A stretch of 64,000 nt of DNA, from contig NZ_JAHXBG010000007.1 of NCBI RefSeq assembly GCF_020103725.1, positions 124,001 through 188,000 on the forward strand. Reading direction: 5' to 3'. The translations under genes were made by a program, and so were the position numbers. This DNA is from Hyalangium gracile. Lineage in GTDB: Bacteria > Myxococcota > Myxococcia > Myxococcales > Myxococcaceae. A model generated the notes under the pieces. It had not been told where the DNA came from, ran no database searches, and worked only from the letters and a program-made list of their open reading frames with translations. How positions within the stretch are numbered: the first letter of the stretch is position 1; each line of letters starts with the position of its first letter. Below are positions 4,304 to 64,000 of this stretch, one piece after another.

Positions 4304-5803
4304 TCAGTAGTACTCCTGCCACTTCACTCCGGAGACGAGGCCCTTGCCGAAGCTGGGCCCGGGGACGGCGCTCTTCAGCCAGCAGGTGGCCCGGTTCGCG
4401 TTGTTCGGCGGGACGTAGGTCCAGGCGCGGCAGCGGTTGTCGCGGGCGCACTCGGCCTGGCAGTACTCGGGCGTCGGGTGGTCATACTGGAAGCTGAGGT
4501 AGTCGGAGCCCCCGCGGTTGGTGTCCATCTCCAGGCCGCGGCGCGCTCCCGAGGAGATGCCGGGGCGGTTGTTGACGGGCATGGGCGTCTGGTTCTTGAG
4601 CCAGCACACGTTCGGCGTGCTCGTGGTGTTGACGGCGAAGGCGCGGCACTGCCAGTCCTGCGCGCAGTACGCCATGCACTCGGAGGTGTTGTTCACGTTG
4701 AAGCTCTTGTAGTCCCCGCCGGGCCGATCGACGCTCGCCTCGGCCGTGGAGTAGGGGCGCTTGGGGCTGAGCCCCGAGACGACGCCGGGAAGCGGCTGGA
4801 AGTCGCCCACCGTGTCCTTGAGGAAGCAGTGGCCGTTGCCGTCCCAGAACCCCGGCTTCACCAGCGTGTAGGCCCGGCAGCGGACGTCGTTGATGCACTC
4901 CTGACGGCAGCGAGAGGCCGTGGCGTCCGCCTGCGCCAGGATGAGGGTGCGGTAGTTGTTGCCCGGGCGGTCCAGGTCCTCCTCGAACTCACCGCTCCAG
5001 GCGTGCATGAGCCCTTCGATCTGCAGCTTGGCCCACGTGGCGTCGGCATCCACGTCGAACCACCCGCCGCGGAAGAGATCCCACGCGTAGCCGCTCTGGA
5101 TGCCCCAGATGGCGCCATTGGCGCCCACGGAGCCGTAGGTGGCGGGGCCGCCGGAGTCTCCCGGGCAGGTGACGTTGCTGGTGGTGCCCGTGAAGGAGTA
5201 GTAGCGCTTGCTCCACGTGCCCGCCTCCGTCGAGCGGTCCGTGCAGCCATAGCCGAAGCGGGTGGAGTACGTGCTCGCCGTCGGGAGCAGTCCGCTGATG
5301 GCCGCGGGGCGCGCCACCGTCGAGGGTACCGGCGTGGCCAGCCGCATCAGCGCCATGTCCGCGCTGTAGCCGCTCGGGGCCTTGGCGTCGAAGCGATGGG
5401 AGAAGCTGTGGATGCTGTCGATGGGGATGACCGGAATCCCGGCGATCTGGAAGTAGTCGAAGCGGCCGTCCATGTACGAGCGGACGGCGGTGTCCTGGTA
5501 GTCGTACTCGTTGAGGCAGTGGGCGGCGGTGAGGATGTAGCGGGGCGCGATGAGCGTCGCCGTGCAGCCGTTATAGGTCCCATCCGGGTTGGGACGGACG
5601 AACAAGCCGATCTCCGGCCGAAGGGACGTCACCGTCCCCCCTACCAGCGGCGCGCCGAGCGTGGAGGGCGCCTCGGGGGGCGGCTCCAGGGCGGGCTCGC
5701 TCTCGAGCTCCGTGCCACCGCAGCCCACGGCGAGCATCGCGGTGAGGGTGGTGGCCAGCAGGGAGAAGGCACGGCGGTACGGCGAGGTCAGCGAGCGTTT
5801 CAT
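4304..5803 (-). CDS. Trypsin-like serine protease lipoprotein with three PAN/apple domains
   Basis: 499 residues. The start ATG at 5803 follows GAGGCGAC. A lipoprotein signal with lipobox LAVGC spans about residues 1-28. The S1 protease domain has the full triad: H95 in LTAAHC, D149 in SADMAL and S217 in CPGDSGGPA. Three Cys-rich PAN/apple-like repeats follow (about 295-365, 370-435, 436-499), each with the pattern RPG..Y..f...C...C..d..CRA(W/F)...CWLK. These modules usually bind protein or carbohydrate. The protein is probably surface-anchored and tethers the protease to a target. It is transcribed alone and converges with the gene at 2782. Confidence 0.93.
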   Translation of the reverse strand: MKRSLTSPYRRAFSLLATTLTAMLAVGCGGTELESEPALEPPPEAPSTLGAPLVGGTVTSLRPEIGLFVRPNPDGTYNGCTATLIAPRYILTAAHCLNEYDYQDTAVRSYMDGRFDYFQIAGIPVIPIDSIHSFSHRFDAKAPSGYSADMALMRLATPVPSTVARPAAISGLLPTASTYSTRFGYGCTDRSTEAGTWSKRYYSFTGTTSNVTCPGDSGGPATYGSVGANGAIWGIQSGYAWDLFRGGWFDVDADATWAKLQIEGLMHAWSGEFEEDLDRPGNNYRTLILAQADATASRCRQECINDVRCRAYTLVKPGFWDGNGHCFLKDTVGDFQPLPGVVSGLSPKRPYSTAEASVDRPGGDYKSFNVNNTSECMAYCAQDWQCRAFAVNTTSTPNVCWLKNQTPMPVNNRPGISSGARRGLEMDTNRGGSDYLSFQYDHPTPEYCQAECARDNRCRAWTYVPPNNANRATCWLKSAVPGPSFGKGLVSGVKWQEYY

Positions 5804-6949: not shown

Positions 6950-7585
6950 ATGAGCCTGCCCTCCACGCCCCTCTCGACCACCCCCTACCTCATCCGCACC
7001 GCGCGGCTCGTCGTGCGCTGCATGCAGCCGGAGGACGCTGCGCGCCGGAAGGAGGCGGTGGACTCCAGCGGCGCACACCTGGATGAGCTGTTTCCGCTCA
7101 AGGAAGGGCCCCTGTCGCTGGAGGTCCATGCCGCGCACCTCCGCAGGTTCCGGGGAAGCTTCGATCTGGACCAGGATCGCGGCTACGGAGCCTTCGAGCC
7201 GGACACGGGACGGATGCTGGGGGAGACCGGGCTGCTCAAGCGGGCCGGTATCGGCGCGCTCGAGCTCTCCTACTGGTTCCGCGGTGGCGCGGTCGGCAAG
7301 GGGCTGGCCACGGAGATGGCCTCGGCGATGGTAAAGACCGCCTTCGAGTTCGACAAGGTGAAGCGCCTGGATGTGTACTGCCTGCCGGAGAACGAGCGGA
7401 GCGCGGCGATGGCGCGCCGGCTGGGGTTCACGTTCGAGGGCAGGCTGCGCGACCGGCAGCTGGCGCCGCACCACGAGCGGGCGGATCTGCTCTGCTTCAC
7501 CCTGCTGGACTCCGAGTATCCGCGCACCCCGGCGAGCCAGCTTCCCTTCGAGGCCTTCGACTTCCTGGGACGGCGGCTCGGCTGA
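6950..7585 (+). CDS. GNAT-family N-acetyltransferase, RimJ/RimL-like
   Basis: 211 residues, the usual length for the family. The pattern follows ribosomal-protein-type acetyltransferases: TARLVVRCMQPEDA at the start, LGETGLLKRAGIGALELSYWF in the middle (beta-4/beta-5 region), the acetyl-CoA loop GGAVGKGLATEMASAM (about residues 107-122), then VYCLPENERSAAMARRLGFTFEG. It probably transfers acetyl from acetyl-CoA to an amino group; the substrate cannot be told. The ATG at 6950 is poorly supported by a ribosome site but matches the family start. Monocistronic. Confidence 0.88.
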   Translation: MSLPSTPLSTTPYLIRTARLVVRCMQPEDAARRKEAVDSSGAHLDELFPLKEGPLSLEVHAAHLRRFRGSFDLDQDRGYGAFEPDTGRMLGETGLLKRAGIGALELSYWFRGGAVGKGLATEMASAMVKTAFEFDKVKRLDVYCLPENERSAAMARRLGFTFEGRLRDRQLAPHHERADLLCFTLLDSEYPRTPASQLPFEAFDFLGRRLG

Positions 7586-7765
7586 GCGCCCGCGGCTCCC
7601 AGTTTCGCGCGGAGGACCTTCGGCCGCCACACTCGCGTGCGAGCTCGTCCTGAGCCTCATCCTGGGCGCGGCGCAGGCCGCTTGCGGCGGCACGGAGGCT
7701 GACCTACGCGAAGCCTCCCGACGCGCGGTAGTCTCCTCCTCCCGTCGGGGAGAGGACTCAGACGC

Positions 7766-8488
7766 ATGGTAGCGGTGGTGTTGGTGGCATGGGCGCTGGC
7801 GGTGGCTCCGGAGGCAGGAGCACCCGCCGGCACCTTCGTACCGAAGACGATCGAGCTGCACGGCAGGACGTGGCGCTATTCGGTGTATCTGCCTCCCGGC
7901 CATCAGCCAGGGCAGGAACTGCCGGTCATCCTCGCGCTGCACGGCGCGGGCGCGCGTGGCACGGACGGGCTGAGGCCCCAGATTCAGGGGGTGGTCACCG
8001 CCGCCCAGGCCTTCCCTGAGCGCTACCGCGCCGTGCTCGTGCTGCCGCACTGTCCGCCGGACCAGAGCTGGAGCGGAGACGTCGCGGACGTCGCCCTGGC
8101 CGCGCTCGAGCGCACGCTCCAGGAGTATGGAGGGGACCGGCGCCGGCTCTACCTGGTGGGCCAGTCCCTGGGAGCGCGAGGAGCGGTCGACATCGCGACG
8201 CTCCATCCCCACCAGTTCGCGGCCGTGGTGGCCGTGGCCGGGAGGCACCTGGCGCCCGAGCAGGCGGCTCGGAGGCTGAAGAGCATGCCCCTCTGGGCGT
8301 GGCACGGAGACGCCGACGCGGAGGTCCCCGTGGCGCGGAGCCGGGCCCTGGTGGAGGCCCTCAGGGCCGCCGGGAGCCAGGGGGTGCGCTACACGGAGCT
8401 GCCCGGCCGCGGGCACTACATCTTCGACACCGCGTTTCGCGATGAGGAGCTGAGCCGCTGGCTCTTCGCGCAGCGGCGGGAGGGGTGA
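7766..8488 (+). CDS. Secreted esterase, PHB-depolymerase/feruloyl-esterase-like alpha/beta hydrolase
   Basis: 240 residues. An N-terminal hydrophobic signal (VAVVLVAWALAVAPEAGA) precedes an alpha/beta-hydrolase domain. Visible features are the oxyanion motif HGAG (about residue 59), nucleophile elbow GQSLG with the catalytic Ser at about 135, acid in WHGDADAEV (about 175) and catalytic His in GRGHYIF (about 215). This order is typical of the dienelactone/PHB-depolymerase-like carboxylesterases. The protein is probably exported and hydrolyses an ester; the substrate is unknown. GGGGAGAGG lies about 12-15 bases upstream of the ATG. A terminator-like hairpin follows the stop codon. Confidence 0.87.
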   Translation: MVAVVLVAWALAVAPEAGAPAGTFVPKTIELHGRTWRYSVYLPPGHQPGQELPVILALHGAGARGTDGLRPQIQGVVTAAQAFPERYRAVLVLPHCPPDQSWSGDVADVALAALERTLQEYGGDRRRLYLVGQSLGARGAVDIATLHPHQFAAVVAVAGRHLAPEQAARRLKSMPLWAWHGDADAEVPVARSRALVEALRAAGSQGVRYTELPGRGHYIFDTAFRDEELSRWLFAQRREG

Positions 8489-8499
8489 GGCAGCCCCGT

Positions 8500-8521
8500 G
8501 GCCCCTGGCCTGGAAGGGGCC
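8500..8521 (+). terminator. Hairpin after the esterase gene
   Basis: A 7-base perfect stem (GGCCCCT / AGGGGCC) with an 8-base loop begins 12 bases after the esterase stop codon. There is a C-run rather than a T-run after it, so intrinsic termination is likely only with help. Confidence 0.45.
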
Positions 8522-8588
8522 CCCCCTTGGCAGAGTGTGCTCCGCGCGACGAAGATCACCCGCTCGTGACACCTCTGATGGAGAAGGA

Positions 8589-10706
8589 ATGATCCAGGAC
8601 CCGGCGGGCCTCCTCCGACGCATCCCCGAGCTGAAGCCTCTCTGCGAGGACCCCGGGGTACGTGTCGCGGTGGAGCGGGGAGATCCGTTCCGGCTCTACC
8701 GGGCCCTGCGCTGGGCGCGGTGGCTGGGGCGCCTGCGCTCCCACCGGGAGCTGATCGACTCGCTGCTGGCCCAGCGGCGCCTCTTCGTGCGGCCCATCAA
8801 GAGCAACCCATGGCTGGGGACGGTGAATGGCTTCGGCGCCACGCTGCTCGGCAGCGCGGAGCCGGACAGCCATGACGGCACGCACATCGCCACCCACTAC
8901 GTCGTCGCGCTCTTCGCCATCCCGCTGCTGCCCCTGGGCGCCTACGTGGTGCGCCCCGCCGAGGGCGGCAACATGATGAGCCGCGGGTGGTCCCTGTTCG
9001 CGCGCGTGCCGCTGGGCCTGCTGCCCTGGCTGTATAGCCGGACCCTGGCGCTCGGGGTGATGGCCCTGGTGGTGCTGGGCGCGGCAAGGTCCTTCCATGC
9101 CTCGCGCAACCAGGACGTGCGCCTCATCAACGGCTTTCCGAAGCCCCTGAACGTGGAGCTGGCGGGTCGCACCCAGCGCGTGCCTGCCCGTGGGATGATC
9201 ATCCTCCCGGCCGTCCCCGTGGGGCGCCAGCAGGGGCGCGCGGTGACCGACGACGGCATCGAGGTGGACGCGCTGGAACTCGAGGTGAGCTCGGGCCTGG
9301 AGGTGTTCGCCTGGAACATCGCCGGGGCTGCCCCGGTCTACCGGGAGACCGTCGCCTATGGCCCCCGGTCGAGCGCGCCGGAGCCACCAGACAAGCCCGA
9401 GATCGACTGCGGCCGCAAGGTCATCAGCCTGCGCAGCGTGGACTACGCCTTCCGGGAGCCTCCCGCCTCGATGCAGCTCTCGAAGGCCGACGGCCGCATC
9501 ACCCGGACCCGTATCGACGTCGCTCCTCAGGAGGAGGGCTCCAATCCTCTGTGCCTGGTCGTGCTCCTCGAGGAGAACCGGACCGCCGAGGCGGCGGCGT
9601 TCCTCGAGGTGTCCGCCCGCATGTCGGGCTGGGAGCCAGAAGCGACGGCCCGCGCGCTCCGCATCGTGCTGATGACGGATCCGGGCGCGGCGCTCCGGAT
9701 GGGACGCGCGGCCATCCAGTCCCGCCCGGAGGAGGTGGAGCTGCACCGGCTCTACCAATGGGTGGCCGAGCGGACGGGGCAGCAGGAGGCGCTGGTGGAA
9801 GAGTATCGGGCGCGTGCCGAGGCACAGCCGGACTCCGCCACCGCTCAGTACCTCCATGCTCGGCTGATGCCCTGGCGTGAGGGAGCCCGCGCGATGGAGC
9901 AGCTCGCCCAGCGATTTCCGACGGATCGGTATGTCCTCAGGTCCGTCACCTACAATCGCTGGCTCGCCGGCGACTGGAGAGGGACGTTGGAGGCCTGGGA
10001 GCGGCTGCGGAGTCTGGACGCCTCGGATGCCTCCGGGCTGGTCGAGGCGGAGGCCACGGCGCTCGTGGCGCTGGGGCGCCGGGGCGAGGCGCTCGCGCTG
10101 CTCAAGAAGCTCTTCGAGGAGGCAGGCCCGATGAATCGGTCGAGGACCGCCGAGCTCTACGCCCGCGTTGCCCGCACCGAGAAGGGCGTGGCGCCGGATG
10201 AGCTCATCGCGGCGCTGGAGGGTGGCGGCTCGGAGGAAGGCTCGAAGCAGTGGTTGCTTCGCTCCCGGGCGGAGCTGCCGACCCAGGGGGCGCCGGATTG
10301 GCCTGGCCTGCGCCTCATGTCCGCGGTGGGCCGGGATCCCCAGGCGGTCGTGGAACTGGCCGCGCGGTTGGAGTCTCCCGACCTCCAGCAGCTGAGCGAT
10401 GCGGGCTGGGCGCTGGCTTATGGGGAGGCGGTGCGCACCGGCGCGACGGCCTCGGAGAAGGTGCTGGCTCAGGCGTATGTGGTGGACGATGCCAGCCTGG
10501 AGCTCTTCCGCCGCTTCGTGCGGGGAGAGGCGGTCTCGCTCCAGGATGCGGAGCTGGAGCCGGAGCTGCGGGCCGCGGCCTGCTTCGTGCGCTCACGCAA
10601 CAAGGCGCTCCCCGCCGAAGAGCGGCGGCGGCTCTTGGAGCAGGCCCGCAAGGAGGATTGGTTCCACGGTTCCGTCAGCGAGGCCATTGCGTCATGGGCA
10701 CCGTGA
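8589..10706 (+). CDS. Membrane protein with TPR-like C-terminal half, partner of the M48 protease
   Basis: 705 residues from ATG 8589, preceded by GAGAAGGA. The N-terminal part (about residues 100-185) has two hydrophobic segments (YVVALFAIPLLPLGAYVV and LALGVMALVVLGAA). Next comes a beta-rich domain of about 120 residues, then an Ala/Leu/Arg-rich helical half (about 330-705) whose repeats (RALRIVLMTDPGAALRMGRAAI, AEATALVALGRRGEALALL) look like degenerate TPRs. The stop codon overlaps the start of the M48 protease gene by 13 bases, so the two are translated together. A scaffold or substrate-recruiting role for the protease is inferred from this linkage only. Confidence 0.75.
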   Translation: MIQDPAGLLRRIPELKPLCEDPGVRVAVERGDPFRLYRALRWARWLGRLRSHRELIDSLLAQRRLFVRPIKSNPWLGTVNGFGATLLGSAEPDSHDGTHIATHYVVALFAIPLLPLGAYVVRPAEGGNMMSRGWSLFARVPLGLLPWLYSRTLALGVMALVVLGAARSFHASRNQDVRLINGFPKPLNVELAGRTQRVPARGMIILPAVPVGRQQGRAVTDDGIEVDALELEVSSGLEVFAWNIAGAAPVYRETVAYGPRSSAPEPPDKPEIDCGRKVISLRSVDYAFREPPASMQLSKADGRITRTRIDVAPQEEGSNPLCLVVLLEENRTAEAAAFLEVSARMSGWEPEATARALRIVLMTDPGAALRMGRAAIQSRPEEVELHRLYQWVAERTGQQEALVEEYRARAEAQPDSATAQYLHARLMPWREGARAMEQLAQRFPTDRYVLRSVTYNRWLAGDWRGTLEAWERLRSLDASDASGLVEAEATALVALGRRGEALALLKKLFEEAGPMNRSRTAELYARVARTEKGVAPDELIAALEGGGSEEGSKQWLLRSRAELPTQGAPDWPGLRLMSAVGRDPQAVVELAARLESPDLQQLSDAGWALAYGEAVRTGATASEKVLAQAYVVDDASLELFRRFVRGEAVSLQDAELEPELRAAACFVRSRNKALPAEERRRLLEQARKEDWFHGSVSEAIASWAP

Positions 10707-12154
10707 GTCAGCGAAGCCCCGCTCGTCGCGCGCTCCTGGCCCTCATCCTGTGGGCGGGCTTCTGGGTGCTGGGGGCGGGGGTGATCGCCGCGCTGGCCTG
10801 GGTGCCGGTCGCCGAGAGCCTCTACGCCGGTGGAATCGGCTGGGCCGGCGTCTTCTCCGCCGCCGGCGCGCTCACCGTGCTGTGGGCGCTGCGGCCGCGC
10901 TGGTCCTTCCGCAGGCGGAAGGAGGACATCGAGACGCTGTCGCAGGAGCGCTTCCCCGCGCTGGCCGCCCTGGTGGAGGACGTGGCCCGCCAGGTGGGCA
11001 CGCGCGTGCCTCGCAAGGTGTACCTGGCGGACCAGGCCACCGCTTTCATCACCATCCAGCGGCGCTGGTGGGGGCTGCGGCGAGAGGCCATCGTCGGAGT
11101 GGGCTTCCCGCTGTTCGCTCTCCTCTCGCGCGAGGAGCTGGCGTCGGTGCTCGCGCACGAGTTCGGCCACCACGTGGGGGGAGACCTGGCGCTGGGCCCC
11201 TGGGTGTACCGCACCCGCTCCGCCATCGCCTCGGCCGTGGAGAGCCTGGAGGACTCGGCCTTCTTCCTGGACGTGCCCTTCCGCCTCTATGGCCAGCTGT
11301 TCCTCCGGGTGTCGGGGGCGGTGTCTCGCCAGCAGGAGCTGGCCGCGGATGCGCTGGCGGCTAGGACTTGCGGCCCCGAGGCGACCGCTCGGGCCCTGCA
11401 CAAGGTGCACCTGCTGGCGCCCCTGTGGGGCGCCTACCTGGGGCACGACGTCATCCCCATCATCGAGAAGGGCGTGCGCATCCCGATTCTGGAGGGGTTC
11501 CGCTCCTTCCTCGCGGAGAAGACCCTGCGCTCGGAGATCTCCCAGGACGTCGAGGAGGAGCTCCGCCGTCCGCCCTCGCCCTGGGACTCGCACCCGCCGT
11601 TCGAGGAGCGGCTGCACTCGCTGGGGCATGAGGGCCCGCGCGAGGGTGCGCCCCTGCCGTTGACGGAGCTGAAGGCGGGAGGCTGCCTCGAGCTGCTCGG
11701 CGGCGAGGCGAGCGCGGAGGAAGTGTTCTACGAGCAGAAGACCCGAGGGGCGCTGGTCTCCCTGAAGTGGGAGGAGCTCGGCGAGAAGATCGTCCTGCCG
11801 GAGATTGCCCGGCACCTCACGGGCGGGGCGCTGGATCCGCGCCGGACGCCGCTCGGCTCGCTGCCGGAGCTGCTGCGCGAGGGGGATCGGCTCTGGGATC
11901 GGGTGCGGCCCGCGGGGCTCTCCATCCTCTCGCCCGAGGCGAAGCGCCAGCATGCCCGGCAGGTGCTGGTGCATTGGATGGCCGCGGTGCTCGTCGAGCG
12001 CGGCTTCGAGCCGGAGCTCCGCCCGGGAATGAACCTGAGGGTGCAGCGGGAGGGGCACTTCGTGGAGCCGGCCGCCATCGTGGACTGGCTGGTGAAGGGC
12101 GTGTGGTCCGAGGAGCAGTACCGCACCTGGAGCAACCTGATCGAGCAGCTCTGA
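10694..12154 (+). CDS. Membrane-bound M48-family zinc metalloprotease
   Basis: 486 residues. Two N-terminal membrane segments (about 12-38 and 45-65) precede the peptidase domain. The zinc motif HEFGHH lies at about residues 155-160 and the third ligand in QQELAADALA (about 215-224), the standard HtpX/Ste24 arrangement. Helical cytoplasmic or periplasmic extension follows to the C-terminus. Such proteases degrade or mature membrane proteins. The start ATG at 10694 lies inside the end of the upstream TPR-protein gene, a 13-base overlap. A terminator-like hairpin directly follows the stop codon. Confidence 0.9.
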   Translation: MGTVSQRSPARRALLALILWAGFWVLGAGVIAALAWVPVAESLYAGGIGWAGVFSAAGALTVLWALRPRWSFRRRKEDIETLSQERFPALAALVEDVARQVGTRVPRKVYLADQATAFITIQRRWWGLRREAIVGVGFPLFALLSREELASVLAHEFGHHVGGDLALGPWVYRTRSAIASAVESLEDSAFFLDVPFRLYGQLFLRVSGAVSRQQELAADALAARTCGPEATARALHKVHLLAPLWGAYLGHDVIPIIEKGVRIPILEGFRSFLAEKTLRSEISQDVEEELRRPPSPWDSHPPFEERLHSLGHEGPREGAPLPLTELKAGGCLELLGGEASAEEVFYEQKTRGALVSLKWEELGEKIVLPEIARHLTGGALDPRRTPLGSLPELLREGDRLWDRVRPAGLSILSPEAKRQHARQVLVHWMAAVLVERGFEPELRPGMNLRVQREGHFVEPAAIVDWLVKGVWSEEQYRTWSNLIEQL

Positions 12155-20472: not shown

Positions 20473-21972
20473 ATGGGGAAGAAGCGCCCCGAGCTGGAGG
20501 TGGACCCGCTCTTCCTGCCCGTGGGAACACGGGTGGGGCCGTGGCGGGTGCAAGGCTGGAGAGGTCGAGGCGCCTACGGCACCCTCTACCGCGTGGAGCG
20601 GGTGGGCCAGCAAGCAGCTGGCTCGTTCGCGCTCAAGCTGGCCACCCATGCTCGGGATGAACGCTTCGAGCGCGAGGCCTGGCTGCTGTCTCGCATCCAG
20701 AGCCCTTACGTGCCACGGCTTCACGAACAGGGCGTATGGGCACACCCCAGCGGAGCCTTTCCGTACGTGGTGATGGGCTGGGTGGAGGGCGAGTCGCTGT
20801 ACGAGTGGGCCGAGAGGCGCAACCCGACGTGGCGTCAGGCGGCGAGGCTGTTGGCCCAGGTGGCGCGGGCGCTGGAGGCCACGCATGCGGTGGGGGGCCT
20901 GCACCGGGATGTGAAGGGTGAAAACGTCCTGGTGCGGCCCGCGGATGGGCGGGCCTTCCTCACGGACTTTGGTGCGGGGCACTACCGAGGTGCGGCCACG
21001 CTCACCACGAAGTTGCTGCCTCCAGGCACGCCCGCCTACCGCAGCCCCGAGGCGCGGGGCTTTCTCCGCGTCTTCCTGCGCCACCCCACCGCGCACTATC
21101 CGGCGAGCACGTGTGATGACTTGTTCGCCCTGGGAGTCATGGCCCACCGGCTGGTGACGGACGAGTACCCGCCGTCCACCCATCCCGAGGAGAGCGGCTC
21201 CGAGGTGTGGAGCGCGAGTGGGTCAGGGCCGCGTCCGCCGCGCGAGCTCAACCCGCGCGTCAGCCCCGCGCTGGACGCGCTCATCCTGAGGTTGCTGGCC
21301 ATCGCCCCCGAGGAGCGATTTGGGGGCAGAGCGGGGGAGGCCGCAGAGGCGCTGGAGCTGGTGGCGGAGAGTGCGGAGGCGGAGGCGGCGGGCCCGCTGT
21401 TCTCCTGGGGGAATGGGCACCTCCCACGCTGGCGGGCTCCCGAGAGTGTGCGGCGAGCCGAGGCACTGGACGCCGCTGCGAGGGAGCAGGCGCTTCGCGA
21501 GGAGGAGGCGCGGAGTGGCGCCAGGGCTCACCGTGAACAGGCTCCGCCATGGGCTTGGGGACCGGTATGGGGAGTGGAGATGGCGGTAGCCCTTCTGGGG
21601 TTGCTGCTCGCGGGGGGCTCCGGGGCCTGGCTGTACCGCGGGCAGGAGCTGGCCGGGACCGCTTCAACCCGTGCGGCCCCGAGGGGAGAGCGTGTGGCAG
21701 TGGCCGACAGCGTGATACCCGCCGCGACGCTCGCCCCCATGCTCAGTCACGACATGCCATCGGTCATCGGGTTGCCGCTGCCCGAGAAGCCCTTTCCCGG
21801 TCAGCGCACGCCTCCGTGCAACAGGCATGGTGAGGTGGAGCTTCGTGGCGGGTGCTGGTACCTGCTGGGCAACGCCCCTGCGCCGTGCAAGGAGGACGCG
21901 TACGACTGGAAGGGAGCTTGTTACCTCCCTTCTTATCCTCCCCGGCGCCCGTCTGCGTCGCAGCTCCCGTGA
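20473..21972 (+). CDS. Membrane Ser/Thr protein kinase, copy 1
   Basis: 499 residues; ATG 20473 follows GGGAGAAG. The N-terminal kinase domain has the Gly loop GRGAYG (about 35-40), K55 in FALKLA, HRDVKGENVL (H144-D146), TDFGAG (D165) and an APE-like RSPEARG. A short Glu/Arg-rich linker leads to one membrane segment (about 369-390). The outside part (about 95 residues) has conserved cysteines in PPCNRHGEVELRGGCWY and APCKEDAYDWKGACYLP, so it should form a small disulfide-bonded sensor. The closest relative is the kinase at 59353, nearly identical over the kinase domain and the Cys domain. Substrate and signal are unknown. Confidence 0.93.
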   Translation: MGKKRPELEVDPLFLPVGTRVGPWRVQGWRGRGAYGTLYRVERVGQQAAGSFALKLATHARDERFEREAWLLSRIQSPYVPRLHEQGVWAHPSGAFPYVVMGWVEGESLYEWAERRNPTWRQAARLLAQVARALEATHAVGGLHRDVKGENVLVRPADGRAFLTDFGAGHYRGAATLTTKLLPPGTPAYRSPEARGFLRVFLRHPTAHYPASTCDDLFALGVMAHRLVTDEYPPSTHPEESGSEVWSASGSGPRPPRELNPRVSPALDALILRLLAIAPEERFGGRAGEAAEALELVAESAEAEAAGPLFSWGNGHLPRWRAPESVRRAEALDAAAREQALREEEARSGARAHREQAPPWAWGPVWGVEMAVALLGLLLAGGSGAWLYRGQELAGTASTRAAPRGERVAVADSVIPAATLAPMLSHDMPSVIGLPLPEKPFPGQRTPPCNRHGEVELRGGCWYLLGNAPAPCKEDAYDWKGACYLPSYPPRRPSASQLP

Positions 21973-59352: not shown

Positions 59353-60852
59353 ATGGGGAAGAAGCGACCCAAGCAGGAAGTGGATCCACTCTTCCTGCCA
59401 GTGGGGATGCGGGTGGGGGAGTGGCGGGTGCAAGGGTGGAGAGGCCGGGGCGCCTACGGCACGCTCTACCGAGTGGAGCGGGTGGGGCAGGAGGCAGCTG
59501 GCTCGTTTGCGCTCAAGCTGGCCACCCATCCTCGGGATGAGCGCTTCGAACGCGAGGCCTGGCTGCTGTCGCGCATCCAGAGCCCCCATGTGCCCCGGTT
59601 CCTGGGGCAGGGTGTGTGGGAGCACGCCTGTGGAGCCTTCCCGTACGTGGTGATGGACTGGGTGGAGGGAGAGACGCTGTACGAGTGGGCCGAGAGGCGC
59701 AACCCGACGTGGCGCCAGGCGGCGAGGCTGCTGGCGCAGGTGGCACGGGCGCTGGAGGCCACGCATGCGGTGGGAGGACTGCACCGGGATGTAAAGGGTG
59801 AAAACGTGCTGGTGAGGCCCGCGGATGGGCGGGCCTTTCTGACAGACTTCGGTGCGGGGCACTACCGAGGTGCGGCCACGCTCACAACGAAGTTGCTGCC
59901 TCCGGGCACGCCCGCCTACCGCAGCCCCGAGGCGCGGGGCTTTCTGCGCGTGTTCCTGCGCCACCCGACGGCGCACTATCCGGCGAGCGCGTGTGATGAC
60001 TTGTTCGCGCTGGGAGTCATGGCCTACCGACTGGTGACGGACGAGTACCCGCCGTCCACACGCCCCGAGGAGAGCGGCTCCGAGGTGTGGAGTGCGAACG
60101 GGCCGGGACCGCGCCCACCGCGCGAGCTCAACCCGCGAGTGCCCCTTGAGCTGGATGCGGTCATCCAGCGACTGCTTGCCATCGCCCCGGAGGAGCGTTT
60201 TGGAGGCAGGGCGAGGGATGCCGCCGAGGCGCTGGAGCAGGTGGCGGAGAGTGCGGAGGCTGAGGCGGAGGGCCCGTTGTTCTTCTGGGGGGATGAGCAA
60301 CGCCCGCGCCTGCGTGCTCCCGGGAGTGTGCGGCGGGCTGAGCTGCAGGACGCCTCTGCGAGGGAGAGAGCGCTGCGCGGAGCGGGTGCGCGGAGTGAAG
60401 CGGAGGCCCACCGGGAGCAGGCTGCGCCGCAGCGCTGGGAACCGGTATGGGGAGTGGAGATGGCGGTGGCTCTGCTGGGACTATTGCTCGCGGCGCTATC
60501 CGTGGCGTTGCTGTACCGTGGGCAGGGACTGGCCGGGATGGCTTCAGCGATAGTGTCACCGAAGGGAGAGCGCGTGGCGGTAGGCGATAGCATCACTCCC
60601 TCTGCGACGCTCGCCCCCATGCGCAGTCACGAACTGCCATCGGCGATCGGGCTGGCGCTGCCCGAGAAGCCCTTTCCCGGTCAGCGTACGCCTCCGTGCA
60701 CCCGGTATGGCGAGGTGGAGATCCGTGGCGGTTGCTGGTACCGCCTGGGTGATGCCCCAGCGCCGTGCAAGGAGGACGCGTACGACTGGAGGGGAGCCTG
60801 TTACCTGCCGTCGTATCCACCTCGGCGCCCGTCTGCGTCCGGGACTCCGTGA
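59353..60852 (+). CDS. Membrane Ser/Thr protein kinase, copy 2
   Basis: 499 residues, exactly the length of copy 1 at 20473. Kinase motifs GRGAYG, FALKLA, HRDVKGENVL, TDFGAG and RSPEARG are all identical in form. Differences cluster in the linker (about 310-370) and the membrane segment; the extracellular Cys domain (TPPCTRYGEVEIRGGCWYRL, DYDWRGACYLP-like ending) is again conserved. The pair probably arose by duplication and may sense the same or related signals. Confidence 0.93.
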   Translation: MGKKRPKQEVDPLFLPVGMRVGEWRVQGWRGRGAYGTLYRVERVGQEAAGSFALKLATHPRDERFEREAWLLSRIQSPHVPRFLGQGVWEHACGAFPYVVMDWVEGETLYEWAERRNPTWRQAARLLAQVARALEATHAVGGLHRDVKGENVLVRPADGRAFLTDFGAGHYRGAATLTTKLLPPGTPAYRSPEARGFLRVFLRHPTAHYPASACDDLFALGVMAYRLVTDEYPPSTRPEESGSEVWSANGPGPRPPRELNPRVPLELDAVIQRLLAIAPEERFGGRARDAAEALEQVAESAEAEAEGPLFFWGDEQRPRLRAPGSVRRAELQDASARERALRGAGARSEAEAHREQAAPQRWEPVWGVEMAVALLGLLLAALSVALLYRGQGLAGMASAIVSPKGERVAVGDSITPSATLAPMRSHELPSAIGLALPEKPFPGQRTPPCTRYGEVEIRGGCWYRLGDAPAPCKEDAYDWRGACYLPSYPPRRPSASGTP

Positions 60853-60872
60853 TGCTTCGTCGCAAGGGCGTA

Positions 60873-60890
60873 CAGGGGCATGAACCCCTG
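60873..60890 (+). terminator. Hairpin after the second kinase
   Basis: CAGGGG / CCCCTG around a 6-base loop, 20 bases after the stop codon. No T-run follows. Confidence 0.35.
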
Positions 60891-60940
60891 GGCGATAGGC
60901 CCTAAAACCGCAGAAGCACACTCCTTTCGTCGTTCCTTAA

Positions 60941-61018
60941 GAGGTCCTAACAAAAGTCAGGTTTGAGGGTTCCGTCCCCTCGGGAGAGGGCTCCAGTCCT
61001 TACTTTTGTTAGGCGCTC
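60941..61018. repeat. Small inverted-repeat element of 78 bp
   Basis: Perfect 12-base inverted repeats CCTAACAAAAGT (60946-60957) and ACTTTTGTTAGG (61002-61013), extended to 17 bases with two mismatches (GAG..CCTAACAAAAGT). It could be a MITE end pair or a solo element. The region 60853-61453 has no gene, only this and the next element. Confidence 0.5.
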
Positions 61019-61166
61019 TAAACTAAACTGGGTACTTCGGGTCCTCGGAGAAGCCCCTGGCAGTCCCGCCTGCTTCCCAGCGCTCCCTCCACTCTTGGAG
61101 ACGTCGTTGACGGCGTCAGGAGAGCACTGTAGCTGTAGCCAAGGCATGGGTTCCTCCTATCGCGGG

Positions 61167-61295
61167 GGTGTGGTTCTCATCCTGAGCACGCTCCGAGGAA
61201 CCGCCAGGGGTCGGCATGGGCGACCTTTGAAAATTCAGCTACTTGCGAGCCTGCGTAGCCTCTGCGGAGGTTCTGCTCAGGATGAGATCCACACC
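61167..61295. mobile_element. MITE: 129 bp with 22-bp terminal inverted repeats and 10-bp target duplication
   Basis: The left end GGTGTGGTTCTCATCCTGAG... (61167-61188) and the right end (61274-61295) are reverse complements at 21 of 22 bases. Both sides are flanked by the direct repeat CTATCGCGGG (61157-61166 and 61296-61305). It has no coding capacity, so a transposase elsewhere must have moved it; a 10-base duplication fits IS4-family enzymes. Confidence 0.82.
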
Positions 61296-61453
61296 CTATC
61301 GCGGGCATGATGGCTCCATGGCGCGATGCAGGTTACTCGGATCTTGACTTGGGAGATAGGTGGCCTTGCCTGGGATACGAATCTTTGTACTGCTCATCAA
61401 TAGCTGCCCAGCTGGCCGCGCCGGATGCGAGTCTATTAGCGAATACACTGAGG

Positions 61454-62890
61454 TCAGGCTTTACTCGCCGATCTCTTTGGCATTCCGTTGATGTAGACGA
61501 TCTCGGATGAGGGTTGCTTCTCCTGTATTGCGCGCGCGCGAATGTTGTCGAGCGTTTCGATCTTCTTACCCTCGTCGCCCACCTCTAGCACGACGTACGT
61601 TGCTGAAAGCGTCTTTTCGCCTTTCTTGTACAATTCGAGTTGCTTGGTGTAGCCCTGCACGAGTTTCACATTAGAAGAAAGTTTGATTTCAACAAGGTGC
61701 CGTAGGGTGCTGCCTTTTGAGAACTTGAAGTCCACGGCACCTTGACCGGTCTCGGTCTCAGGATTGATGTCTAGATCGTTGGCTTCGCAGTAGGCGAGGG
61801 CGATGGCGAAGAACATCCGCTGAGCAGCCTTCTCTGGACGCCGCTTCCTATGGTGCCAGAGTTCGCGCCAGAGATCACGGTTTTCGATCAAATGCGTGAA
61901 CTGATCGATGATCTTATCGACGACTGTCTTCATCGACTTGGCGTCATGGACCTTGGGTTTCTCGATCGCTAGCGGCTCTCGGGCGGTCAACTCCTCAATG
62001 CCTCTCTTCCAGAAGAGCAACCCGTCTGGATCGGAGTGCACGTCGTAACCGACCTTCGGGATAGAATGGATACTCGCGAGGTAAGCCTCGAAATTCGCTT
62101 TGCTGGCGAGCATCTCTTCGCGAAGCTTGTCCTTATCTTTTTGACGGACAGCATCGGCCCAGAGTGCCGCAACCTTCTTGTTGACGTTGCTTCGGAGTGC
62201 TTCGCTGATGGCGATGGCGTGCTGGATTCCATCCCAGTCCTTCGCAATTGGCAGGGCACGAAGGATGTCTTGCGGAACGAGAATGATTGGGCTGTCTGGA
62301 TCGTAGGGGTTCGGAATCAGATTCCCTTTGGACGACCCCACCTTCATCTCCTTCGTCGGAATGCCTAACGTCTTGGCAACGCCCTCGTTCAGTTTGACGA
62401 GTGCGGGCATGATCACGTTCGTAGTCATGTCACTGATCAGGTCGGGACCGATCTCCTTCTCGAACAGGGACATCGCAACGAACAAATCTGGATCGGTGAC
62501 GCCGAGGTTCACAATTGCTTTTGCCGTCTCCAGCAACTGTGCCGTCTTCTTGCGCCCAAACGCCGAGCCAGCGGTTGACACGGCGCCGTAACCAAGGCAG
62601 GTGCCCCGAATTTCGGGAAATCGGAGCAGATTTGTGGCGGTTTTCCAATAGGTGTCGCCCATGCTCTTGGATTCATGCAGAAACTTGATGACCAGTTTGA
62701 AACGCTGCTCGTAGGCCTCTTTCGCGTCTTTGCTAATCGTCGGATTCGAGCTTGCTGCGAGAAGCAAAGGGTCGATGAACAGTGGTGTATCGACGTTCAA
62801 ACTCGGCTCGAAGAGCCCAAGCGGGGCCCATATATTCGGCTTAACGTTGAAGTGCTTCGTGAAGAGCACGGGTTTCGGCAACTTGGCCAC
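61454..62890 (-). CDS. Unknown protein with C-terminal PD-(D/E)xK-type nuclease motif, candidate defence gene
   Basis: 478 residues. The start is GTG 62890 with GGGGGG upstream. The N-terminal 350 residues have no recognised domain but carry strongly patterned blocks (NVDTPLFIDPLLL, TCLGYGAVSTAGSAFG, DPDLFVAMSLFEKEIGPD, ISDMTTNVIMPAL, ILVPQDILRALPIA). The C-terminus has GAVDFKF (D387) and LVEIKLSS (E401-x-K403), the D-x13-ExK core of restriction-endonuclease-like nucleases. GC content is visibly lower than in its neighbours, and two small mobile elements lie beside it, which points to horizontal transfer. Known relatives are, as far as I recall, uncharacterised proteins of genomic islands. 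Confidence 0.75.
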   Translation of the reverse strand: MAKLPKPVLFTKHFNVKPNIWAPLGLFEPSLNVDTPLFIDPLLLAASSNPTISKDAKEAYEQRFKLVIKFLHESKSMGDTYWKTATNLLRFPEIRGTCLGYGAVSTAGSAFGRKKTAQLLETAKAIVNLGVTDPDLFVAMSLFEKEIGPDLISDMTTNVIMPALVKLNEGVAKTLGIPTKEMKVGSSKGNLIPNPYDPDSPIILVPQDILRALPIAKDWDGIQHAIAISEALRSNVNKKVAALWADAVRQKDKDKLREEMLASKANFEAYLASIHSIPKVGYDVHSDPDGLLFWKRGIEELTAREPLAIEKPKVHDAKSMKTVVDKIIDQFTHLIENRDLWRELWHHRKRRPEKAAQRMFFAIALAYCEANDLDINPETETGQGAVDFKFSKGSTLRHLVEIKLSSNVKLVQGYTKQLELYKKGEKTLSATYVVLEVGDEGKKIETLDNIRARAIQEKQPSSEIVYINGMPKRSASKA

Positions 62891-62930
62891 GGTTCCCCCC
62901 AGCAGACTCGGGTGTTCTCAATCTTATAGA

Positions 62931-62936
62931 ATTATA
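62931..62936 (-). promoter_or_regulatory. -10 box of the nuclease gene
   Basis: A perfect TATAAT on the minus strand, 41-46 bases upstream of the GTG at 62890, in a run unusually AT-rich for this genome. No good -35 box is seen 17 bases upstream. Confidence 0.45.
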
Positions 62937-63229
62937 TACTGGCAGGCGTGCCCGTTGAGGAGGAGGAAGAGAAGCCAGAAAGAGAGGCAACTCGCAACTG
63001 AGTGCGCGGCGACCAAGCGCGCAACGCTAGAGATGTACATAGTCCATGCAGGCCTCAGAATCTTTGGAGGCACCTTGGGGACGAGGAGCGCGTCGAAAAA
63101 GCACCCGAGAAGTTGTGAAAGCGAAGGGCTTGGAATCTTTGAGGTTTTTCTCTCGATTCGGGGCTCGTCTCTTGACGAAGATTACGGAACTTGAACCCAA
63201 AGCCCAGAGGTAGCGGCGGTCTGTGACTT
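62937..63229. other. Intergenic region without a recognisable gene
   Basis: Nearly 300 bases of mixed base composition between the nuclease gene promoter and the oxidoreductase gene. No gene, repeat or RNA was recognised. Confidence 0.4.
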
Positions 63230-64000
63230 TCAGCGTTCCGAGGTCATGAGTGACACCACTTCCTCCGCGCAGCCCCAGGACAGGGTGACGCCCGCGCCGC
63301 CGTGGCCGTAGTTGTGGATGACCTGGCGCTCTCCCACGCGCTCTTCCTCGAGGCGCACTGTGGGGCGTCCGGGTCTCAGGCCCACCTTGTGCTCCAGGAC
63401 CTGGAAGTGCGCTCCAGCAGGCAGCAGTCGCCGGCAACGCGCGAGGATCTCCTGCGCCTTTGCTGAGTCGGGCACTAGCGACGCGTTCTCGCCCTCGGCC
63501 GTCCCTCCCAGGATGCAGTCGGCGGAGCGGGGGATGACGTAGGCAATCCCTCGCTCCTCGCTCTCATCGAAGAAGAAGCGCGACACGGGCGGCGGAGCCA
63601 CTCGCAGCACTTCGCCTCGAATCGGGAACAGCGAGTCGTCTCCCACCAGCGTGCGCGCCCCCAGGCCCGTGCAGTTCACGACCACCGGAGACTCCCGCCA
63701 CGCCTCATCCAACGAGCGCACCTCGCGCTGCAGCAGCCGGCCTCCCAGCTCCCGGAACCGCGCCATGAGGAACGGCAGGTAGCGCGGCATCTCGATGATG
63801 GGCGCCTCGAACGAGTAGCCGTGCGAGTACCCCGGCACCATCTCCTCCGCGGTGGTCGCACGCAGGCTCGGCACGCAGGGCGCCCACCAGGGCTCGGGCG
63901 GCGCCTCGGTGAACAGCTCAACCCCTCGCACCACCTGGATGCCCGCCTCGGGGTTCGCCGACAGCTCGCGCAGCACTTCGAAGGTGCGCCGCGCCCAGCC
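63230..64000 (-). CDS. FAD-dependent D-amino-acid-oxidase-like protein, partial
   Basis: The C-terminal 256 residues are visible; the reading frame is open to the window end and the N-terminal FAD motif lies beyond it. The conserved parts are VVNCTGLGARTLVGD (about 100-115 of the visible part), PIRGEVLRV, YVIPRSADCILGGTAEG and the C-terminal HNYGHGGAGVTLSWGCAEEV, all characteristic of D-amino-acid oxidases (DAO family), where the last one contacts FAD. It probably oxidises a D-amino acid to an imino acid with release of H2O2. Confidence 0.9.
   Translation of the reverse strand, partial: GWARRTFEVLRELSANPEAGIQVVRGVELFTEAPPEPWWAPCVPSLRATTAEEMVPGYSHGYSFEAPIIEMPRYLPFLMARFRELGGRLLQREVRSLDEAWRESPVVVNCTGLGARTLVGDDSLFPIRGEVLRVAPPPVSRFFFDESEERGIAYVIPRSADCILGGTAEGENASLVPDSAKAQEILARCRRLLPAGAHFQVLEHKVGLRPGRPTVRLEEERVGERQVIHNYGHGGAGVTLSWGCAEEVVSLMTSER

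Follow-up and report, generated by a model that had tools for sequence, protein, structure and literature searches.

The window that we analyzed, 64,000 nucleotides of the Hyalangium gracile genome, contains a gene that is probably a horizontally acquired, stand-alone defence module, in which a single protein combines a sensor with a nuclease and which is carried by mobile elements. Its relatives are carried by plasmids, prophages and satellites, next to genes known to act against viruses, which suggested that it is probably a one-gene defence system. The sequence-only reading of the same DNA had proposed the open reading frame listed in Table 1, and this ORF was confirmed: it has 478 codons, and tblastn alignments of many relatives start at its residue 1. 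The nuclease gene is present in a single copy in this genome.

The protein matched phrog_30194 (PHROGs v4) over its full length (1–477 on 1–476 of 478, E 6e-139) and belongs to the same family, to which PHROGs assigns no function. No Pfam family was found at E ≤ 10, and the sequence search against solved structures returned chance matches only. CFA/I fimbrial rows in the latter search cover ~37 residues and were disbelieved. A profile search of the N-terminal region, suggested as a check in the sequence-only reading, detected the PADLOC family PDC-M36A (residues 29–217 on profile 26–217 of 457, E 2.2e-9). The description "no known function" was therefore slightly too strong: it holds for phrog_30194, but the N-terminal part is already a PADLOC candidate.

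Table 1. Coordinates in the window of the gene, its domains and the surrounding features.
Feature	Position	Strand	Basis or remark
CDS, phrog_30194 family protein, 478 aa, GTG start	61454..62890	-	N-terminal domain + C-terminal PD-(D/E)xK nuclease
Proposed sensor/regulator, N-terminal domain, residues 1-212	62255..62890	-	model, conservation, PDC-M36A match
Middle/linker, residues 213-314	61949..62254	-	216-233 and 235-247 pLDDT < 50
C-terminal PD-(D/E)xK nuclease domain, residues 315-478, conserved SAS(K) tail	61457..61948	-	
Catalytic motif D387-x13-E401-x-K403	61682..61732	-	sequence + conservation
TATAAT, -10-like box, 41 nt before start codon, no consensus -35	62931..62936	-	
Inverted repeat, 25-nt arms 84% complementary	60937..61022	.	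single copy in genome
Inverted repeat, 23-nt arms 96% complementary	61166..61296	.	single copy in genome
Flank homologous to nearest congener (G002)	63059..63229	.	homology stops at 63059
Decayed tRNA 3'-end copy	63173..63198	-	by eye, same position as intact 3'-end copy in G002

The catalytic residues D387, E401 and K403 are placed as the sequence-only reading had claimed. They were kept in 97%, 98% and 100% of 106 aligned proteins (window protein included), so that the pattern is not due to chance. E353 (97%), Q357 (93%), E378 (98%), Q417 (96%) and Y421 (95%) were also conserved in this alignment. With D387, E401, K403, E353 and E378, the protein shows the PD-(D/E)xK sequence signature, D-(x)n-(D/E)-x-K plus an upstream E. 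A near-invariant S-A-S-K C-terminus was observed in the type-A members (residues 475–478 of the window protein, 61457–61468, minus strand), in which SAS was conserved at 92–96% (106 sequences).

The full protein was modelled by AlphaFold2 with pLDDT 86.2 and pTM 0.82 (77 family sequences as input). When residues ~312–476 of the model were compared by VIA, BstYI was matched with Z 8.9 (rmsd 3.5, 136 residues aligned), and OkrAI and BamHI with Z 8.6 and 8.4 (136–147 residues); McrC, SduA and others scored lower. These Z values near 8–9, obtained with a predicted structure, are modest. No PDB structure was matched at E ≤ 0.001 by Foldseek alone, and a viral structure library yielded a best E value of 3.2e-3, its rows including restriction-like and Mrr-like ones. 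The motif, its conservation and the predicted fold identify residues ~312–476 as a PD-(D/E)xK restriction-endonuclease-like domain, and we infer that this C-terminal domain would cleave DNA in a metal-dependent manner.

Nuclease residues were lost in three relatives (L006, L008 and L011). In L006 (7989–9797, plus strand) and L008 (7941–10028, plus strand), a degraded nuclease site is accompanied by an extra C-terminal extension, and these two proteins are possibly inactive or repurposed. L012, on an Acinetobacter plasmid, is a truncated member without the nuclease. The nucleases were assigned to types by profile classification, and 120 distinct proteins of at least 400 aa comprised 94 of type A1, 15 of type A2 and 11 of type B; the nuclease of the window protein is of type A1.

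The N-terminal domain contains ten near-invariant residues, five of them acidic (D34, D40, P41, E93, G100, G108, D150, S153, D154 and P206). All of them except D40 were identical across 31 A1, 14 A2 and 11 B sequences, and D40 was identical in the same set except in two B sequences. Residues 1–212 modelled alone reached an AlphaFold2 pLDDT of 90.3. Fold searches with this domain gave a best E of 1.4 by Foldseek and a best Z of 3.6 over 81 residues by VIA; such a missing match is no proof of a new fold.

The same N-terminal domain was joined to different nucleases across the relatives. The A1 and A2 nuclease profiles are homologous (hhalign E 5.9e-22), whereas no similarity was detected between the A1 and B profiles (hhalign E 0.51). 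The profile of 69 type-A1 N-termini nevertheless matched every B member tested, with E from 4e-16 to 4e-24 (12 loci, with L003 and L154 being the same gene). Weak HSDR_N and Mrr Pfam matches were found in one scanned B member.

Exchange was also observed from the opposite side. A scan with the nuclease only yielded 21 viral loci, of which 18 had the N-terminal domain, one was a fragment (L211) and two had another N-terminus. These two, L195 (3047–4501, plus strand) and L201 (3041–4471, plus strand), join a type-A nuclease to a different, mutually related N-terminal region of ~300 residues. Their identity to each other was 36% over 455 columns, nuclease included, and their 39–42% identity to the window protein was confined to the nuclease. 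No PADLOC match was obtained for this second N-terminal region, and a single-sequence scan for its relatives returned only its source contig. L201 lies directly behind a gene that looks by eye like an integrase.

Taken together, these profile comparisons indicate that the protein is modular: the N-terminal domain occurs with two sequence-unrelated nucleases, and the nuclease occurs with two N-termini. A constant front combined with changing nucleases suggests that the front half serves as the recognition part or switch, and a nuclease that stays the same while the front differs points to the same division between sensor and nuclease. From this modularity, it is fair to suppose, as the sequence-only reading did, that the N-terminal blocks may sense an invader.

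The base composition of the gene differs from that of its surroundings, as had been claimed. Its GC content is 0.539, versus a mean of 0.697 (sd 0.025) and a minimum of 0.623 across 586 slices of equal length from window positions 1–60000, and its GC3 is 0.69, versus 0.78 and 0.87 in its two neighbours. The low-GC tract extends over ~60800–63200. The consensus -10 box that had been taken as a further sign of foreign origin is present, but a sigma-70 two-hexamer scan of 60850–63260 found no promoter-like site (mean of 1.1 in shuffles), so the promoter argument is weak.

On the upstream side, homology with the nearest congener (G002) extends from 64000 to 63059, where it stops, indicating that the foreign segment starts at or below 63059. 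The gene at 63230–64000, an FAD oxidase by eye, was kept in 7/7 genomes of the genus. In G002 the next gene in the slot beside the oxidase is TIR-like (L137, 241–1080, minus strand), a label based on reading and a weak PADLOC row, and in another congener (G006) it is VgrG by eye. The TIR-like gene of G002 would be another likely defence gene at this position. The cargo of the slot thus differs between strains, and the slot is perhaps an old site of integration. The decayed tRNA 3' end in this flank is only suggestive of an old attachment-site scar, and neither ARAGORN nor Rfam detected a tRNA at the junction. Since the intact version of this tRNA 3' end in the same genome is found ~114 kb further along the contig, the site may not be the attachment site of this element itself.

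On the downstream side, both inverted repeats sit between a kinase-like gene and the nuclease gene. The sequence-only reading had invoked flanking small mobile elements, and this part of it was rejected, because no further copy of 60860–61450 exists in the whole genome. Two kinase-like genes (by eye) in the window, at 20473–21972 and 59353–60852 (plus strand), are 85% identical and 39 kb apart, and more copies with 62–70% identity occur elsewhere in the genome. By eye, neither of the two genes adjoining the nuclease gene looks like a defence gene.

Relatives of the protein are widespread but patchy. A scan of 84,980 species genomes (one genome per species) returned 559 candidate stretches, 479 of which encode a relative; the best 80 of these 479 were kept as loci. 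The relatives were found in Pseudomonadota, Bacteroidota, Planctomycetota, Chloroflexota, Verrucomicrobiota, Cyanobacteriota, Campylobacterota and other phyla. Only 2/195 genomes of the window's own phylum hold a relative, the second (G134) being of type B, and the gene is absent from all six other genomes of the genus. In an even draw of 398 genomes from the phylum of G202, the N-terminal domain was present in 16, counting G202 itself, which was the centre of the draw and had been picked for holding the gene. A quick tree of 78 proteins requires 14 changes of phylum label versus a minimum of 8, and the starred branches force at least 7 changes for Pseudomonadota; these counts are consistent with transfer, with the proviso that bins can be contaminated. 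The window protein forms a long branch on this tree, and its exact place is unsure. Horizontal acquisition of the gene is supported, and the earlier description as a recently acquired nuclease agrees with its composition, its absence from six congeners, the patchy cross-phylum spread and the carriage of relatives on plasmids, prophages and satellites.

Fifteen plasmid records contain relatives, and nine of them were typed as conjugative. When the family alignment was used for scanning, 21 viral contigs with relatives were found, whereas the scan of viral contigs with the single window protein was empty; in cultured phage records, tblastn gave no match for the whole protein or for the nuclease. 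Ten neighbours on the viral contigs were compared with PHROGs, and the matches included integrase, repressor, primase, terminase, head, tape-measure and Psu. In 4/21 viral contigs (L095, L097, L098 and L104), an integrase gene immediately precedes the gene, which is followed by a Psu-like gene (27% match to Psu in L095 and L098). According to PMC9122126, the psu–int stretch of P4-like satellites is a reservoir of antiviral systems, and the integrase–gene–psu order in these four contigs identifies their slot with that hotspot.

Known defence genes were found when neighbours of the relatives were checked. Among nine neighbours scanned with PADLOC, which were chosen by hand from the loci and are not a random sample, 7/9 were matched. 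L011 has PtuA of Septu as a divergent, adjacent gene (E 5e-187), and the Rhodobacter relative L004 has Dsr1 (E 2e-78) and a type IV restriction enzyme (E 2e-110). UzuA of Uzume (E 6e-59) and an NsnA/PD-T4-2-like protein were matched at L154, SIR2 at L113 (E 3e-9) and a type IIG-like enzyme at L006, while two neighbours in L007 had no PADLOC match. L154 is the locus in G134, the second genome of the same family, where the type-B relative (7321–8757, plus strand) sits between the UzuA-like and NsnA/PD-T4-2-like genes (4902–5708 and 9222–11000, both minus strand).

The wider neighbourhood was sampled at 39 qualifying loci of the 80, and the scan took in 148 proteins encoded close to the gene at 37 of these loci. 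Pfam was applied to the near set only, and the commonest families were Phage_integrase (5), ResIII (4), HTH_3 (4) and Mrr_cat (4). Some near neighbours are metabolic (ThiC, aconitase and citrate synthase, 1/148 each), but the outcome that the sequence-only reading had named as speaking against defence, homologues confined largely to core genomes next to such genes, was not observed. With PADLOC, 309 families were matched in the 148 near proteins versus 242 in 142 far proteins located 5–7 kb away (142/148, leaving out two from L054, two from L085, one from L024 and one from L076). Because the near and far sets are both rich in defence matches, no enrichment among the neighbours is claimed.

The neighbour clusters contained no constant partner gene. 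The largest cluster, from 17 loci, apparently consists of integrases (partly by eye). A same-strand gene within 50 bp was found upstream in 11/71 and downstream in 11/71 of the loci having neighbours on both sides. Methyltransferases occur near some loci, but not as a constant cognate neighbour. The proposal of a single-gene defence system holds in that the gene is solitary and without a constant partner, while its defence part is supported by association with a mobile and antiviral context.

Based on these results, we propose how the module may work. When a phage enters, the conserved acidic residues of the N-terminal domain would bind a signal derived from the invader, and the signal-bound domain would release the nuclease. 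The freed nuclease would then degrade the DNA of the phage, and perhaps that of the host, so that infection would be stopped. A partner gene would not be needed, judging from the absence of a constant neighbour. Its pairing with different nucleases among the relatives makes the N-terminal domain the likeliest place for infection to be recognised and the nuclease to be controlled. More tentatively, and with less than an even chance of being right, it could be an infection sensor of an unrecognised kind, or an enzyme making or binding a signal, that is built on the five acidic residues and perhaps has a new fold. It would combine with different effectors just as the nuclease would with other sensors, and the two would represent a new class of immune system with exchangeable parts.

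Direct restriction of modified DNA is the main rival, although we consider it unlikely. The protein would then be a solitary restriction enzyme of type IV-like character, whose N-terminal domain reads DNA modification or sequence and whose nuclease cuts without an infection switch. The resemblance of the nuclease to type II enzymes of the BamHI/BstYI group fits this explanation, as does the lack of a constant methyltransferase neighbour, which is expected of modification-dependent enzymes, and type IV and type I/IIG restriction genes are among the neighbours. However, the Pfam search found no known modified-base reader in the N-terminal half, and the domain swaps in both directions fit a general switch at least as well. 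It is rather improbable that the gene serves the maintenance or exclusion functions of its mobile element, barring competing plasmids, satellites and transposons or helping its own element to persist: carriage on conjugative plasmids and satellites and the integrase neighbours would suit such a role, but a constant linked antitoxin-like partner is missing and the gene sits where known antiviral systems are carried. That the protein is a chromosomal nuclease of DNA repair or recombination whose gene moves incidentally is very improbable, since the gene is absent from six other genus genomes and from most genomes sampled and its tree crosses phyla, even though PD-(D/E)xK folds are also known in repair enzymes (EndoMS, VIA Z 6.4).

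If the gene is indeed a sensor–nuclease defence module, a widespread family (479 related stretches) would provide immunity through one gene whose sensing domain is uncharacterised. Some members lie in the P4-like satellite slot that, according to PMC9122126, yielded validated systems. The swaps, in which the front occurs with two nucleases and the nuclease with two fronts, would in that case tell the sensing half from the cutting half.

Several known systems share parts of this architecture. Shedu (SduA) likewise defends with one protein, in which a PD-(D/E)xK nuclease forms the C-terminal part and the N-terminus varies. The SduA structure 8ps5 matched the window nuclease with VIA Z 6.0 over 124 residues, and no Shedu profile in Pfam or PADLOC matched the window protein at E ≤ 10. 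Can2, Card1 and Cdn1 are two-domain ligand-gated nucleases whose ligands come from the CRISPR polymerase. Can2 matched the window nuclease with VIA Z 7.8 (135 residues aligned), but the window N-terminus matches no family profile of the cyclic-oligoadenylate kind. For EruA, a NACHT anti-phage protein (NCBIfam NF058535), residues 312–423 showed a weak match to the C-terminal part (E 0.0082, 14.3 bits). This score falls well short of the 1000 bits set as the curated cut-off, and the window protein gave no NACHT match; EruA is a lead only.

The closest likeness in the N-terminal half is to PDC-M36A (PADLOC v2, PDLC04597/PDLC04598), which has this region in common with the family and matches distant relatives with E up to 3e-45. 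Its best match is a type-B member, whose nuclease is unrelated in sequence to the type-A nuclease of the window protein, and the window protein did not match the C-terminal part of the profile. As judged from these alignments, the nuclease of the type-A clade is outside the coverage of the PDC-M36A profile, which matches the front part only. In PMC12988326, PDCs are described as putative candidates from guilt-by-embedding that are mostly unvalidated. In the open-licence literature, we found no phage or cleavage experiment on any member, and no naming paper for PDC-M36, phrog_30194 or six member accessions. Since PDC-M36A covers only the front part and no naming paper was found, we file the protein as a variant of modular single-protein sensor–nuclease defence and claim no proven membership in any named system.
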